The notes under the pieces were generated by a model. The model searched no databases. It saw nothing but the letters and a program-made list of their open reading frames with translations, and was not told the DNA's origin. This document shows positions 9,932 to 57,447 of a DNA stretch of 64,000 bases, one piece after another; position 1 is the stretch's first letter, and every line of letters begins with the position of its first letter. Source of the stretch: Arthrobacter crystallopoietes (GTDB taxonomy: Bacteria > Actinomycetota > Actinomycetes > Actinomycetales > Micrococcaceae). The position numbers were made by a program, and so were the translations under genes. The stretch spans positions 1,116,001 to 1,180,000 of the forward strand of contig NZ_CP072014.1 of the NCBI RefSeq assembly GCF_017603825.1, read 5' to 3'.

Positions 9932-10052
9932 GGCGAATTCCTTCAGAGTCTGCGCCGCGGCGCGATGTGCGGGAATCCCGGGCAATGACGATCCATCGGG
10001 CGCCAGGCCGGACAGCCTTGCGCCATCCGGATCAAAGATTGCTTGCGCTCTC

Positions 10053-10143
10053 TCCATCGCTTCTGGCGGTAGCACCTCTCCGGTGGAGTCCGGATGGTTG
10101 CTGCGGCGTCAAAGAGCCAGATCTCTCGGCCGCTCGGGATGGT
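10053..10143 (-). ncRNA. SAM-I (S-box) riboswitch of the sfnG-metY operon
   Basis: Read on the minus strand, CCATC (P1) is followed by the core CGAGCGGCCGAGAGATCTGG, TTGACGCCGCAGCAACC, a variable arm, GAGGTGCTACCGCCAG and the closing GATGG. This is the S-box layout. About 120 bases separate the aptamer from the sfnG ATG (expression platform and leader). SAM binding should switch the operon off. The 9932-10292 interval holds only this leader and the promoter region. Confidence 0.9.
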
Positions 10144-10292
10144 CCCGACTATTCTCGCAACTGTTACGGCGCGCTACCAAGAATGTTTAGTCGCATTGCG
10201 TTCTCCCGTGGGTTTGCCGAAAACGTTGGACAGGCCTCTGCCGTTTTCCACACTTCCGAAGAGGTGCTGGCCGTGGAACTACCCCTCAGTCC

Positions 10293-17855: not shown

Positions 17856-17868
17856 GGTGGAGTTCCTT

Positions 17869-17979
17869 TCCATCGGTCCTGGCAGTAGCACCGTTGCCCG
17901 TGTTCAGCCTGACGGCTCGTTCAAGGGGGCGGGTTGCTGCGGCTTCATCGATCCAGGTCTCTCGGCCGCTCGGGATGGG
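17869..17979 (-). ncRNA. SAM-I riboswitch of the MetE-like gene
   Basis: On the minus strand: CCATCCCGAGCGGCCGAGAG, ACCTGGATCGATGAAGCCGC, AGCAACC, a variable arm of ~35 bases, GGTGCTACTGCCAGGACC and closing GATGG. The Shine-Dalgarno of the downstream gene (AAAGGA) starts right after P1, which fits translational control. Confidence 0.92.
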
Positions 17980-18061
17980 TCCTCCCACTAAATGGCATTT
18001 CGAGTTGCCGGCGCAAGTCCGTCAACCGCGCCCCGCCATTCCCGAGTGAATGTGACGCAGG

Positions 18062-18575: not shown

Positions 18576-18700
18576 CCAAGATCAAGAGTCCCAACGACAA
18601 GCTCTGGCTGGTTGGGCGGCAACCCTCTCCCGTAGTGGGGTGCCCCAGATGAGGATCTGGCCGTGCACAAACCGTGTCCGGCAAGTACGGCCCCCTCCCG
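18576..18700 (+). ncRNA. SAM-IV-like riboswitch of the DszC-like operon
   Basis: CCAAGATC ... GATCTGG forms the basal stem. Inside are AGAGTCCCAACGACAAGCTC, TGGTTGGGCGGCAACC, CTCTCCCGTAGTGGGGTGCC and CCAGATGAG. This order (AGAGTC, CAACGACAAGC, GGCAACCCTC, GGGGTGCCCC) is typical of actinobacterial SAM-IV and differs from the S-box copies nearby. A downstream GGCCGT ... ACGGCC helix fits the extra 3' stem of the class. It lies ~70-110 bases before the ATG at 18769. Confidence 0.78.
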
Positions 18701-22720: not shown

Positions 22721-22781
22721 TTACCCGGTGTGACGTATTGATTTCGCCCCCGCCGCCGTACTGCGGTGGAATGGTCAAGTA

Positions 22782-22868
22782 ACCATCCAGAGCGGCTGAG
22801 AGACCTGGCTCGTTGACGCCGCAGCAACCCCCTCTTTGAGGAAGGTGCTACCGCCAGGACCGATGGAG
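22782..22868 (+). ncRNA. SAM-I riboswitch of the DszA/NtaA-like gene
   Basis: CCATCCAGAGCGGCTGAGAG, ACCTGGCTCGTTGACGCCGC, AGCAACC, a short variable arm, GGTGCTACCGCCAGGACC and closing GATGG. This is the most compact S-box in the window. The gene's ATG lies 90 bases downstream with its own Shine-Dalgarno, so control may act on transcription or through the leader. Confidence 0.93.
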
Positions 22869-22955
22869 AAGTTTGATCTCTCGTTGGTTCGCAGCAGGCA
22901 GATGCCGCTGTCGATCGCCGGCGCGGGCTCTTCTCTTCAAGAAAAGGAGCCTGAC

Positions 22956-53538: not shown

Positions 53539-54207
53539 ATGATGACAGTAGTTGGGGAACATACTGTCGCGCCGGAGTCCGAAGGAACCGAGGTTCCAAC
53601 GGGCTTGACGCGCAGAGTTTTTGGAGTACTTGTAGGCGCCGGCGTGGCTGGCATTATCGGCGGAGGCAGCCTTCTCTCAGCCTCGAAGAACGCTGCGGAT
53701 ACGGGAGGGATCTCCCGCGGCTCCGGTGTTTGGACATCCTTCGGGAGTGTCCGCATCGTAGCCGCGGAAAGACAGTCGCGGATGCCGCAGACGCCCGGCG
53801 CGGGGGGTTCTACCGCGGCCGCTACCGGTGCAGCATCATCCGGCCACGACCATGGCGGCGCAGCCGCGTCCGGCACCCAACCGGCCAACTTCACATGGGG
53901 CGACCATGTGGTGCTGCAGCTGGAAGTCCACAACGGCCTGGACCGGCCGGTCCTCTTCTCGCCCGGCCAGCTGCGGCTGAAGGTGGGCCCTGACGGACCC
54001 ACTGTCACTAACAGGTCATCCGGCGCCGGCAAGGGTGCCCTGGATCCGGGCGCCACGAACAACTTCTGGATCAGCTTCCTGGTGCCCTCCGACATGGAGC
54101 AGCTCTCGGCCGAATTCACGGATCCCTGGTCTGACGGCGCGCCGCTGGCCCTGGAACTGCCCACCGTCCTTCGCCGGCCCGGATGGCTGGAGAACAATCA
54201 TGGCTGA
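53539..54207 (+). CDS. Tat-exported His-rich protein of the split multicopper oxidase cluster
   Basis: A 222-residue secreted or membrane-anchored protein. A twin-arginine motif (TRRVFG, ~24-29) precedes a hydrophobic segment (VLVGAGVAGIIGGGSLL). Then comes a His/Gly-rich stretch (SGHDHGGAAASG) and a beta-rich domain (~130-215, DHVVLQLEVHNGLDRPVLFS) that looks Ig-like, similar to DUF4352. It overlaps the next gene by 8 bp. Position and His-rich loop suggest a copper-handling or anchoring partner for the oxidase subunits (inference). ATG 53542 is an equal alternative start. Confidence 0.6.
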   Translation: MMTVVGEHTVAPESEGTEVPTGLTRRVFGVLVGAGVAGIIGGGSLLSASKNAADTGGISRGSGVWTSFGSVRIVAAERQSRMPQTPGAGGSTAAATGAASSGHDHGGAAASGTQPANFTWGDHVVLQLEVHNGLDRPVLFSPGQLRLKVGPDGPTVTNRSSGAGKGALDPGATNNFWISFLVPSDMEQLSAEFTDPWSDGAPLALELPTVLRRPGWLENNHG

Positions 54208-55783
54208 GTTCGAAAACAACGGCCAGCAAAACGACGACGGCGGGGCCCTCCTGGGCGAGGACGCGCCGGTGAGCCGCTGGAGCTTTGTGAAATACGGGGC
54301 TGCCGCGGGGCTTGGCGCGCTGGCGCTGGCCGGTGCGCAGCCGGCCTATGCGCGGACCGCGACGCCGACCGAAGAGGCTGTGGCACCCGAGCCCACCGAG
54401 CTAGCGACAGGTCTGGCGACCGGCGTGGCTACTGAAGAGGCTGAGGAGCTGGAGCCGACCGACGGGGCGACCGACGAAGCTGAGGACCTGGAGCCCACCG
54501 ACGAGGCGACCGACGAAGCGGAAGCTCCGGACGCAAAGCTGCTGGAATCGGACCGGGAAGTGCTGGATGTCTATATCAACGAGGGCTACCTCAAGATGGT
54601 GGATGACTCGCTGGTCTACTTCCGCGGGTTCGGCGACCGCCCCACGGAGAAGAACGACGCCAATCCCAGCCTCACCATCAAGCCAAAGGTCTTCCTGAAG
54701 GACGACACCTGGGTGGACAGCCGGATCTACCCCGTAGGTGCGCCGGAACCGCCACGTGGTACGCCGACGCCGCTGCAGCCGGATCCCGAGAATGCCGGCC
54801 AGTACTTGGTCCGCAGGGCCTACTGGGGCAGCTTCATGCCGGAGCGGGTCATCGTTGCCGAAAAGGGCAGCAAGATCAAGCTGCGGGTCCACAACCGGCT
54901 GGCCAAGGATCACGAGCTGGCCATCCACGGGGCCGGCGATGACGGCGAAGACGTCAGTACGGGCAAAATCGCGCCAGGTGCGGTGGGAACGCTGGAACTG
55001 AAAGCGCCGGAACCGGGGGTCTACATCTACAGCGATCCGGGCAACCAGCCGGTGGAACGGACCCTGGGCCTGTACGGCGCGCTGGTTGTCATGGACCCTT
55101 CGGACGCCTGGTGCATCTCGACGGACGGCGCCGAGTTCGAACGCCAGTGGGTCTGGCTTTGCCACTCTATCGATCCGGTGTGGGCAAACATCGAGGCCAA
55201 GGGCGGCACCGTGGACCCGGTCCGGCAGAAGGCCGTGCCGCGCTACTTCACGCTCAACGGCCGCAGCGGCTACGAGTCTATGGGCATGACCCGCAACGAG
55301 GCATTGAACCGGGCCGCCGATGAGGAGACCACCATTTCCGGGTACCCGCGGCAGTTCGACGCCCGGGAGTTCGCCCAGGGCTCGGTCATCGGCTCACTGC
55401 GCGGCGGGCAGTTGGTCCGCGTCGTCAACTGCGGGATTGTCTTCCATCAGATGCACTTCCACGGCAACCATTTGTGGACCGTGCGCTGCGATAACGAGGA
55501 CTGGAGCCGCGACGAAGGCCATGTGGGTGAGGACGGCTACGTCTGCATCCAGCAGTGGGAAGACGTCATCAAGGTCAGGGGGATGGAATCCAAGGATGCC
55601 ATCATCCCGATCAAGCGGCCGCCGGACGCGGTCGACAAGGTCTGGGACAACAGGAAAACAGACTGGGCGTACCCCATGCACTGCCACTCCGAATCTTCCC
55701 AGACCGCCGCTGGCGGCATGTACCCGGGCGGTCTGACTTCCCACTGGATCATTAAAGCGCCTCTCGAAGGAGCGACATCATGA
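54200..55783 (+). CDS. multicopper oxidase subunit with motifs 3 and 4 only
   Basis: 527 residues. A Tat-like signal SRWSFVK (RW in place of RR) leads a hydrophobic run to ~51. An acidic linker (~55-112) holds two copies of LEPTD-ATDEAE. Cupredoxin domain 1 (~150-300) has lost its copper motifs: IHGAG stands where HWHG belongs and YSDPGN where HSH belongs. The C-terminal cupredoxin keeps motif 3 (HQMHFH, His416/419/421) and motif 4 HCH (494-496), but the following HxxxxM is SESSQTAAGGM, so the second type 1 His is missing. The start is ATG 54200 with GGAG. It overlaps the next gene by 4 bp (ATGATG region). Alone it cannot form a trinuclear copper site. Confidence 0.78.
   Translation: MAEFENNGQQNDDGGALLGEDAPVSRWSFVKYGAAAGLGALALAGAQPAYARTATPTEEAVAPEPTELATGLATGVATEEAEELEPTDGATDEAEDLEPTDEATDEAEAPDAKLLESDREVLDVYINEGYLKMVDDSLVYFRGFGDRPTEKNDANPSLTIKPKVFLKDDTWVDSRIYPVGAPEPPRGTPTPLQPDPENAGQYLVRRAYWGSFMPERVIVAEKGSKIKLRVHNRLAKDHELAIHGAGDDGEDVSTGKIAPGAVGTLELKAPEPGVYIYSDPGNQPVERTLGLYGALVVMDPSDAWCISTDGAEFERQWVWLCHSIDPVWANIEAKGGTVDPVRQKAVPRYFTLNGRSGYESMGMTRNEALNRAADEETTISGYPRQFDAREFAQGSVIGSLRGGQLVRVVNCGIVFHQMHFHGNHLWTVRCDNEDWSRDEGHVGEDGYVCIQQWEDVIKVRGMESKDAIIPIKRPPDAVDKVWDNRKTDWAYPMHCHSESSQTAAGGMYPGGLTSHWIIKAPLEGATS
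54449..54526 (+). repeat. 39-bp acidic tandem repeat (two copies)
   Basis: Encodes LEPTDGATDEAED then LEPTDEATDEAEA (residues 84-109) in the acidic linker of the first multicopper oxidase subunit. Confidence 0.7.
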
Positions 55784-57447
55784 TGGAAACATTGCTCCCG
55801 GGCAGAAGGCTGAGCTTCCAGGAGCGGAAGGCCGCCGAAAAGAAGCGGAAGGAAGCCGCGGCGAAGAAGAAGCGGGAACAGGAGGCTCGGCGTAAGCGCG
55901 AGGCCGAGGCGAAGAAGCGGGCCGCGGAGGCGAAGAAGAAGCGGGAAGCTGAAGCGAAGAAGCGTGCTGCCGAAGCAAAGCGCAAGGCGGACGAGGCGAA
56001 AAAGCGGCGCGAGGCGGAAGCCAAGAAGCGTGCAGAAGAGGCTAAGCGGCGTCGCGAGGAGGATGCACGCCGGAAGCAGGAGGCCGAGGAAAAGCGCCGC
56101 CGCGAGGAAGAAGAAGCCAGCAAGCCCAAGCCGCCACCGACTTCGACCACGCCGCCTCCAGTAGACAAGCCCACGGAGCCGACCGAGCCCAAGGACCCGG
56201 GGGACAACACCGGGACCGATCCGGAAGAGAACACTGAGCCGACCGAACCGGACGAAGATCCGACGGATGGGGCGGAACCGGATCCCGCGCCGGACCCCGA
56301 GCCTGAGCCGGTGCCGGAGCTTCCCGTCGTGGAGGCGGAAGCACGGCACATCTTTGACAGCCAGGTGGACTTCAGCTCGAATCAGAACGAGCAGGATCAA
56401 CCGGTCACCGAATACAAGATGACCCCAAACATCAGCTACAAGCTCGACTTCTACGGGACCGATCTGAAGTTCGACGATGGCGCCGAAGTAGAGATGTGGA
56501 GCTTCGAAACCGACGATCAGCGCAAGTGCTTCCCCGGCCCGCTGATCAGGCCGAAGGAAGGCCAGATTTTCCATGCCAGTTTCAGCCCGAGCAAAGGCAA
56601 CCACACCATCCACTGGCACGGCATGGAACCGGACCCCCGGAACGACGGCGTGGGGCACACCTCCTTCGAGATCGCCGGAGACTACACCTACCAGTGGCAG
56701 CCCCAGAAGGGCACGCCGGGCGACGCAGACTGTGGGACGGCCGGAACCTACTTCTACCACTGCCATGTGAACACCACGCTCCATGTCCAGATGGGCATGT
56801 TCGGACCACTCATCATCGATCCGGTCGAGCATCCGGACTTCCCCGTCACGCCTGGCGCCCGGCGGGCATTTGTGGACGGACCGGAATACGACATCGACAC
56901 CGAAGCGCTCCTGATCCCGTACAGCATGGATACGCGCTGGCACGGCATGAATCACGCCGCCGGTTTGTCGGGCGAGGACGCGGGCCTGAACCACTTCCAG
57001 CCCAAACATTTCTATGCGCTGGGAGGGGAGCTGGCGCGCCGTCCCAGCGGGAAGGAAAAGGTCTGGTCAATGAAGTCACTGCGCGCCAACGTGTACAAAG
57101 CCGGTGATACTCGCAAGCCGACCCTGCTGCGGCTTCTGAACGCCAACTACCTGCCCACGATGCTGCGGTTCCAGGACAAGTCGGGCAACCCTGTGGCCAT
57201 GGCCGAGGTCATCGCCCATGACGGCAGGCCGTACCGCGATACGCACGCGAAGGACGGGTCCTCCCCGCCCTGCGGGGCTGCCGGATATCCGATGATGACC
57301 AGCGTGCTGGCGTCCGGTTCCGCCGAGCGGTATGACCTGCTGCTCCTTCCACCGGCCGCGGGGGAGTACCAGGTGGTGCTGGACTTCAAGGACTGGATCA
57401 CCGACGAGGTGATCGGCCAGCGCATTATCCCGCTGACCGCCTCGTAA
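55780..57447 (+). CDS. multicopper oxidase subunit with motifs 1 and 2 and a charged coiled coil
   Basis: 555 residues. The N-terminus has no signal peptide; residues ~13-112 are an uninterrupted Lys/Arg/Glu/Ala coiled coil (repeats of EAKKRAAEAKKK), then a Pro/Thr/Glu linker to ~185. Cupredoxin domain 1 keeps motif 1 HWHG (278-281) and motif 2 YHCH (326-329, Cys in place of the usual Ser) followed by MGMFGPLII. Domain 2 ends with the typical GSAERYDLLLLP. There is no third domain, so motifs 3 and 4 are absent. It overlaps the previous subunit gene by 4 bp. The two proteins together supply all four motifs, suggesting a heteromeric oxidase. Confidence 0.78.
   Translation: MMETLLPGRRLSFQERKAAEKKRKEAAAKKKREQEARRKREAEAKKRAAEAKKKREAEAKKRAAEAKRKADEAKKRREAEAKKRAEEAKRRREEDARRKQEAEEKRRREEEEASKPKPPPTSTTPPPVDKPTEPTEPKDPGDNTGTDPEENTEPTEPDEDPTDGAEPDPAPDPEPEPVPELPVVEAEARHIFDSQVDFSSNQNEQDQPVTEYKMTPNISYKLDFYGTDLKFDDGAEVEMWSFETDDQRKCFPGPLIRPKEGQIFHASFSPSKGNHTIHWHGMEPDPRNDGVGHTSFEIAGDYTYQWQPQKGTPGDADCGTAGTYFYHCHVNTTLHVQMGMFGPLIIDPVEHPDFPVTPGARRAFVDGPEYDIDTEALLIPYSMDTRWHGMNHAAGLSGEDAGLNHFQPKHFYALGGELARRPSGKEKVWSMKSLRANVYKAGDTRKPTLLRLLNANYLPTMLRFQDKSGNPVAMAEVIAHDGRPYRDTHAKDGSSPPCGAAGYPMMTSVLASGSAERYDLLLLPPAAGEYQVVLDFKDWITDEVIGQRIIPLTAS

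Follow-up and report, generated by a model that had tools for sequence, protein, structure and literature searches.

Within the window, by which the whole analysed stretch of 64,000 nucleotides is meant, the oxidase locus is made up of three overlapping genes which, like every feature of the locus named below, lie on the forward (+) strand of a 4.38-Mb genome consisting of a single contig; among named organisms, the relatives nearest to the locus by tree belong to Arthrobacter. The first gene, orf0 (53539..54207), was read from its open reading frame as a small accessory protein of 222 aa, and its 3' end extends into the beginning of chain A. Chain A (54200..55783) encodes 527 aa in which motifs and profiles recognise two cupredoxin domains, the second carrying half of a putative trinuclear copper site, and chain B (55783..57447) encodes 554 aa in which the same kinds of evidence point to a long N-terminal tail followed by two cupredoxin domains. 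The stop of chain A and the start of chain B share the 4 bp ATGA, an overlap that the initial annotation had recorded correctly; an alternative ATG for chain B at 55780 would give a protein of 555 aa. Current domain models describe the pair incompletely: Pfam places one multicopper oxidase domain in chain A and two overlapping ones in chain B above cut-off, no NCBIfam model reaches its cut-off on either chain, and in the one annotated record inspected both pieces are named only "multicopper oxidase domain-containing protein". An Rfam scan of the window returned riboswitches and SRP RNA only elsewhere and nothing at the oxidase locus, and a copper-operator-like pattern has no match across the window. 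As an observation apart, one SAM-IV and three SAM riboswitches fall within about 13 kb of each other (window 18580-18693, 22780-22869, 10051-10145 and 17867-17981).

Chain A begins with a leader composed of SRWSFVK and a hydrophobic stretch ending in AYA-R (54272..54355), in which the twin arginine is degenerate (RW), followed by an acidic low-complexity tail with a net charge of -21 over 67 residues (52-118; 54353..54559). Its first domain, A1 (54560..55132, approximate bounds from alignment and motifs), is a cupredoxin without copper motifs, in whose place stand IHGAG (242-246) and YSDPGN (277-282). The second domain, A2 (55133..55780, approximate bounds from profile), is of the second-domain type and contains HQMHFHGNH (55445..55471), with H419 and H421 as predicted trinuclear ligands, and MHCHSESSQ (55676..55702), with H494 and H496 in the same predicted role, assignments that rest on motif and conservation. 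A-H416 occupies a type 1 position and is conserved less than the trinuclear His; no type 1 His follows 3' of MHCHSESSQ, and C495 is mostly lost in Proteobacteria. A profile built from 23 A chains aligns over both domains of the two-domain oxidases 3g5w and 2zwn, the HxH of A2 falling on the domain 2 HxH of 3g5w. Judged by its sequence, chain A is thus a two-domain oxidase in which only the second-domain half of the trinuclear site is left.

Chain B opens with a Lys/Arg/Glu/Ala-rich tail (55783..56118) of net charge +19 over 112 residues, which is probably helical and has a weak TolA match; no signal peptide was seen on this chain in the window. The opposite charges of the acidic chain A tail (54353-54559) and the basic chain B tail (55783-56118) might serve for pairing or for cell-wall binding. 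The first domain, B1 (56338..56826, end approximate), is of the first-domain type by profile and motifs, with a type 1 site and half a trinuclear site: HTIHWHG (56602..56622) provides H274 as a type 1 and H277 and H279 as trinuclear ligands, and YHCHVNTTLHVQMGM (56755..56799) provides H326 and H328 for the trinuclear site and C327, H334 and M339 for the type 1 site, all as predicted. The best solved-structure matches of a profile from 23 B chains are to domain 1 of 3g5w and 2zwn, and the match covers HTIHWHG and YHCHVN..H..GM, Cys included. Domain B2 (56827..57444, start approximate), a cupredoxin without copper motifs, is recognised by matches across domains 1-2 of laccases (2hrg, 1gyc) and by the fold model. 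Chain B is accordingly read, from the same kind of evidence, as a two-domain oxidase that has retained its type 1 site but, of the trinuclear site, only the first-domain half. The motifs named in the initial annotation were found again, namely HQMHFH (416-421), HCH (494-496) and the domain 1 IHGAG and YSDPGN in chain A, and HWHG (277-280) and YHCH (325-328) in chain B, whose numbers on the 554-aa protein are one lower than those given there. Its inventory of chain B was correct for HWHG and YHCH and overlooked the complete type 1 site (H274, C327, H334, M339). What does not stand is its framing of the two chains as parts of one oxidase with three domains: both are degenerate oxidases of the two-domain type, and to describe chain B as having no domain 3 is to use the wrong frame, given that A and B are each built of a pair of cupredoxin domains.

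The same genome encodes a fused A-B homologue, P0004, of about 800 aa, whose residues 28-425 match chain A (54% over 398 aa) and residues 430-796 match chain B (55% over 370 aa); full-length fused relatives measure about 760-810 aa from first to last domain and have four domains. The co-occurring pair, for which the initial annotation had proposed a database search, was found in other bacteria as well, encoded separately or fused. A scan of bacterial and archaeal genomes gave 359 pattern matches, among them 292 relatives, and the best 80 of these 292 fall into 78 loci. At 30 of these A and B are fused in a single ORF and at 42 they are split; three are broken in frame (L073, L102, L103) and three show B only, of which L108 is cut by a contig end and L104 and L105 have no A in 6.0 and 4.6 kb upstream. 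At all 42 split loci among these best 80, 26 from Actinomycetota and 16 from Proteobacteria, A is adjacent to and upstream of B on the same strand. Relatives occur in 10/10 genomes of the genus (the source genome included), in 15/149 of a family sample, in 3/297 of an order sample and in 5/296 of a class sample; the order and class figures are rough, as no more than three candidates per genome were scored in them and some of their matches are weak (E about 1e-11). In the genus and the family, the searches yielded 13 fused copies as single matches, G120 having a broken end, together with 17 A matches with an adjoining B, which include two pieces of one broken A and of which L019 and L043 are one frame with a longer linker. 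Six further A matches without B represent five loci, one of them in two pieces. Lone A-type loci occur in four of the ten genus genomes (L009:6358-7830, and also in G001, G003 and G007), each of which has a complete pair and a fused copy as well, and four intact lone A copies (P0005, L024, L026, L027) retain the four His. The three B matches without A are two ends of broken fused copies and the L105 locus.

Co-occurrence was also followed in 274 genomes from the class of L114, a locus in a Gallionellales genome, which GTDB places in Gammaproteobacteria. At a cut-off of E 1e-20, 22 of the 274 genomes have a B match, 26 matches in all, and A lies directly upstream in 16 of the 26; two of these 16 loci, L126 and L128, are L114 and L115 of the bacterial and archaeal scan. 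The other ten comprise one A gene of a counted pair, two B-like genes in tandem where a contig ends, so that an A ahead of them would be out of sight, six matches of 29-31% identity without an A in the stretch viewed, and one contig-end fragment. L138 is such a contig end, with two B-like oxidase genes in a row and no visible A. Two of the weaker lone matches, L142 and L143, have all four motifs in a single chain.

Conservation was counted over 87 A/B rows from Actinomycetota and Proteobacteria with less than 99% mutual identity, in P0004 numbering. In A2, H326, H328 and H331 are each present in 87/87 rows and H401 and H403 in 86/87 each, both of the latter being absent only from L139, in which the reading frame of A seems to lose register towards the end; in B1, H520, H523, H525, H572, C573, H574 and H580 are found in 87/87 and M585 in 82/87. 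Each of the eight predicted trinuclear His is therefore retained in 86 or 87 of the 87 rows. The type 1 positions of A2 are kept less strictly, C402 in 68/87 and H323 in 79/87, so that the Cys is lost in 19 rows and the residue corresponding to window His416 in eight; His416, which the initial annotation had counted among the trinuclear ligands, belongs to a type 1 position instead. A count over 96 rows, in which repeats were still included (36 fused, 31 actinobacterial split and 29 proteobacterial split), shows the same pattern, with Leu substituting the type 1 Met of B1, and among these 96 rows the positions of A1 and B2 that match copper ligands hold no such residue set; that set contained eight exact repeats reached by other routes, including the window pair, and L115 and L128 are one locus. 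Left out of the residue table and the trees were the broken frames L073, L102 and L103; L104, L105 and L108 are unpaired and have no whole A. Also omitted from the table were L126, L131, L135, L138, L142-L147 and L149-L151, which repeat the L114 locus, are cut-off copies, have no A in view, are weak lone matches or duplicate a locus. The full multicopper oxidase set, that is, eight trinuclear His plus the type 1 His2-Cys-Met, is complete only over A and B together. The presence of four trinuclear His in A2 and four in B1, in fused and split forms alike, while A2 may lose its type 1 residues, speaks more than anything else for a shared site whose type 1 copper sits in B1.

The fold was modelled on a fused relative, L048 (95% identical to P0004), for which AlphaFold2 with a 117-row alignment gave a pLDDT of 91.3 and a pTM of 0.93. 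The top Foldseek hits of this model are coagulation factors V and VIII, ceruloplasmin and MnxG (9bxa), all of them six-domain proteins or allied to such. When A2-B1 was modelled by itself, confidence was lower (pLDDT 75.8, pTM 0.77), and among the 50 matches listed for it, the six from factor V, factor VIII or ceruloplasmin score a TMq of 0.42-0.49 at an rmsd of 7-12 A, the other 44, which are two- or three-domain chains, scoring 0.18-0.30 at 15-23 A. The model weakly suggests that A2 and B1 face each other like consecutive domains 2-3 or 4-5 of six-domain proteins and, with the same reserve, that their contact may be unlike that between the two domains of one two-domain chain.

In a concatenated tree of 87 rows, a set which differs from the residue table in lacking L043, which has 87% identity with the row closest to it, and in keeping both L115 and L128, the pairs from Proteobacteria fall to the same side of one branch and the fused forms appear in three places. 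In a tree of 51 rows, further thinned by hand, the fused forms need at least three changes of state and come together in 0/200 bootstrap trees; a single fused clade was considered and rejected (p-AU 6e-55). Given split outgroups, about three fusions would be the shortest account, on a tree that by itself cannot separate gain from loss. That one neighbouring pair should have fused more than once is to be expected if the chains work as one body.

The best explanation overall, and one that we hold to be highly probable, is that A and B form one multicopper oxidase with its trinuclear site across the A2:B1 interface, the inter-chain sharing of that site being in itself very likely from the sequences. 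Such an enzyme would consist of four cupredoxin domains in the order A1-A2-B1-B2, with trinuclear copper bound at the A2:B1 interface by four His from A and four from B, and with a type 1 copper, the acceptor of electrons from the substrate, in B1. As neither chain holds the full trinuclear ligand set, the enzyme should be an obligate heteromer. The central claim of the initial annotation, that the two chains share one trinuclear cluster, is in this respect strongly, if indirectly, supported by sequence comparison, through the fused homologue, the split and fused loci, the near-invariant His and the polyphyletic fusions, as well as by the confident predicted fold of a fused relative. As to origin, a type C two-domain oxidase was probably duplicated, and the copies would have lost opposite halves of the site.

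Neither chain has all the motifs, and lone A copies and two B-only loci exist, observations that would fit two separate copper proteins, B serving for type 1 electron transfer or copper binding and A as a structural partner or chaperone, with no working trinuclear site between them. Yet the near-complete retention of the eight His, set against the loss of the type 1 Cys of A in 19/87 rows, is as expected of a shared site and not of isolated metal binding, and the repeatedly fused order sets A2 beside B1, so that we consider separate functions unlikely. The resemblance of both chains to two-domain oxidases, which are homotrimers, could likewise be taken to mean that A and B each assemble into a homo-oligomer of their own with a site between subunits, in the manner of the two-domain laccases; such an assembly would pair A2 with A1 or B1 with B2, however, and A1 and B2 lack the His, whereas the weaker lone matches L142 and L143 do keep all four motifs in one chain. 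We regard this reading as very improbable.

Two adjacent pieces might also result from faulty sequencing or from a recent frameshift within a fused gene, particularly as a fused homologue is present in the same genome and truly broken copies do occur (L073, L102, L103). This explanation, whose probability we put close to nil, is refuted by the conservation of the split state over 26 actinobacterial and 16 proteobacterial loci among the best 80 of the 292 relatives. Against it stand also a split pair 93% identical to that of the window in another Arthrobacter (L099) and the frames themselves: most actinobacterial split B frames start at least 100 residues before the first B domain and the 16 proteobacterial junctions have three different stop codons with a B start within about 90 bases. 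Stop-codon read-through joining A and B in Proteobacteria was considered separately, as many B frames there continue the frame of A, and was rejected on two grounds: the junctions use different stops (TGA, TAA, TAG), and B is provided with its own start within about 90 bases.

The export of an oxidase composed of A and B probably follows different routes in Proteobacteria and in Arthrobacter. In all 16 proteobacterial pairs of the 78-locus scan (best 80 of 292 relatives), A has a clear twin-arginine leader, judged by hydropathy and by eye, and by the same means no leader was seen on their B chains; with a Tat signal on A and none on B, B is probably carried out in complex with A on A's Tat signal. 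A pair from the search in the class of L114, L141, has a leader of its own on both chains and counters co-export as a general rule. In the split pairs of the Arthrobacter group, that of the window among them, most readable A leaders have another residue in place of the second Arg (SRWSFVK); L079 has an extra Arg one place early, the broken L103 has kept RR, and L093 and L100 are leaderless. Outside the Arthrobacter group, L090, L097 and L109 retain RR. Among the 30 fused forms a leader is present in L071 only, L077 being cut, and proteins of the P0004 type have neither a leader nor an orf0 directly upstream.

The product of orf0, for its part, carries a Tat-type leader with TRRVFG (53608-53625, by leader reading), and its domain has a weak DUF4352-like match (E 0.003, below cut-off). 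The gene lies directly upstream in 26/29 split or broken and in 14/30 fused loci, that is, in 40/59 loci with A, and of the 40 leaders 37 have a clear Tat motif by eye and 39 by a looser script pattern. At 13 of these 14 fused loci, 3-6 bases separate the orf0 stop from the start of the A domain, which leaves room for a leader only if it overlaps orf0. For Arthrobacter, a shift of the Tat signal to the upstream orf0 is probable, and orf0 may act as an export escort for the oxidase. A parallel is offered by Streptomyces, where, in the part of the source available (PMC2758597), the tyrosinase MelC2 hitchhikes on MelC1; the likeness, a Tat-signal helper encoded upstream of a leaderless copper enzyme, is one of arrangement. 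Taken jointly, a homotrimeric oxidase would have been duplicated and its copies would have lost opposite half-sites, giving an obligate heteromer that was fused several times and that in Arthrobacter is exported as a folded complex on the Tat signal of orf0 in a MelC1-like manner, a history that we put forward tentatively, at somewhat less than an even chance.

Hints at function come from relatives, the window locus itself offering none as to substrate. Among the 16 proteobacterial loci (best 80 of 292 relatives), an RND-type pump gene of one cluster is found at 5/16 and its neighbour at 4/16, these two genes being AcrB-family and CusB-like at L114, which hints at a link with copper. The alphaproteobacterial pair L124:9031-13959 lies near an animal-haem-peroxidase/RTX protein, and a gene of the same cluster lies near L112:6172-10392; the peroxidase with RTX repeats at L124 presumably resembles the manganese-oxidising MopA, and these neighbours hint at a link with manganese. 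That the substrate is a low-valent metal is a guess.

When compared with known oxidases, A and B have two cupredoxin domains per chain, as two-domain oxidases do, and their domains align with those of the blue copper oxidase of Nitrosomonas europaea (3g5w) and the laccase 2zwn, both "type C" two-domain oxidases; the likeness extends to the first-domain type 1 site HCH...H...M and to the second-domain HxH that aligns with that of A2. Type C enzymes have all motifs in one chain and form homotrimers with a trinuclear site at every subunit interface. Here, by contrast, the four copper motifs are divided between two related chains, with the second-domain His in A and the first-domain His in B, and only the A2:B1 interface can hold the site; as far as sequence goes, this division argues against a type C-like homotrimer. 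Because an interface site is already known in homotrimers, the novelty lies in the four-domain, two-gene form and not in the interface site itself. To the three-domain oxidases (CueO, CopA, laccase), which carry motifs 1-2 in domain 1 and motifs 3-4 in domain 3 of one chain, there are weak profile matches (CopA and CueO models, far below cut-offs), but no three-domain chain is present here and the motif order is reversed, the second-domain half coming first. The fungal heterodimeric laccases (POXA3), so far as the accessible portion of the record describes them, are likewise oxidases of two different subunits. POXA3 differs in that its large subunit is a full laccase by itself, the small one not being known to carry copper ligands.

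Among titles and the beginnings of abstracts of open-licence papers, none was found on a split, four-domain, two-gene or heteromeric oxidase. Multicopper blue proteins are divided into two-, three- and six-domain classes in the portion of the literature source at hand (PMC3600357). According to the same portion, MnxG-like oxidases unite six domains in a single chain, carry their type 1 site, in bacteria, in domain 2 and have, as in algal Fox1, a trinuclear site between the consecutive domains 2 and 3 (PMC3600357). In the A/B system the predicted ligand sets lie in domains 2 and 3 (A2 and B1), an arrangement that may correspond to theirs, and among the matches listed the A2-B1 piece resembles six-domain chains best. 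It differs in having four domains, in being often encoded by two genes, and in its putative type 1 site in domain 3 (B1). The family offers repeated natural comparisons of split and fused forms, through which it becomes testable how the interface site of a symmetric homo-oligomer turns heteromeric, and two chains that can be mixed, mutated or omitted singly provide a handle on the assembly of the trinuclear copper cluster. We rate the A/B system as a four-cupredoxin-domain, often two-gene oxidase related both to the type C two-domain and to the MnxG-like enzymes, a form that fills the gap between the two- and six-domain classes.
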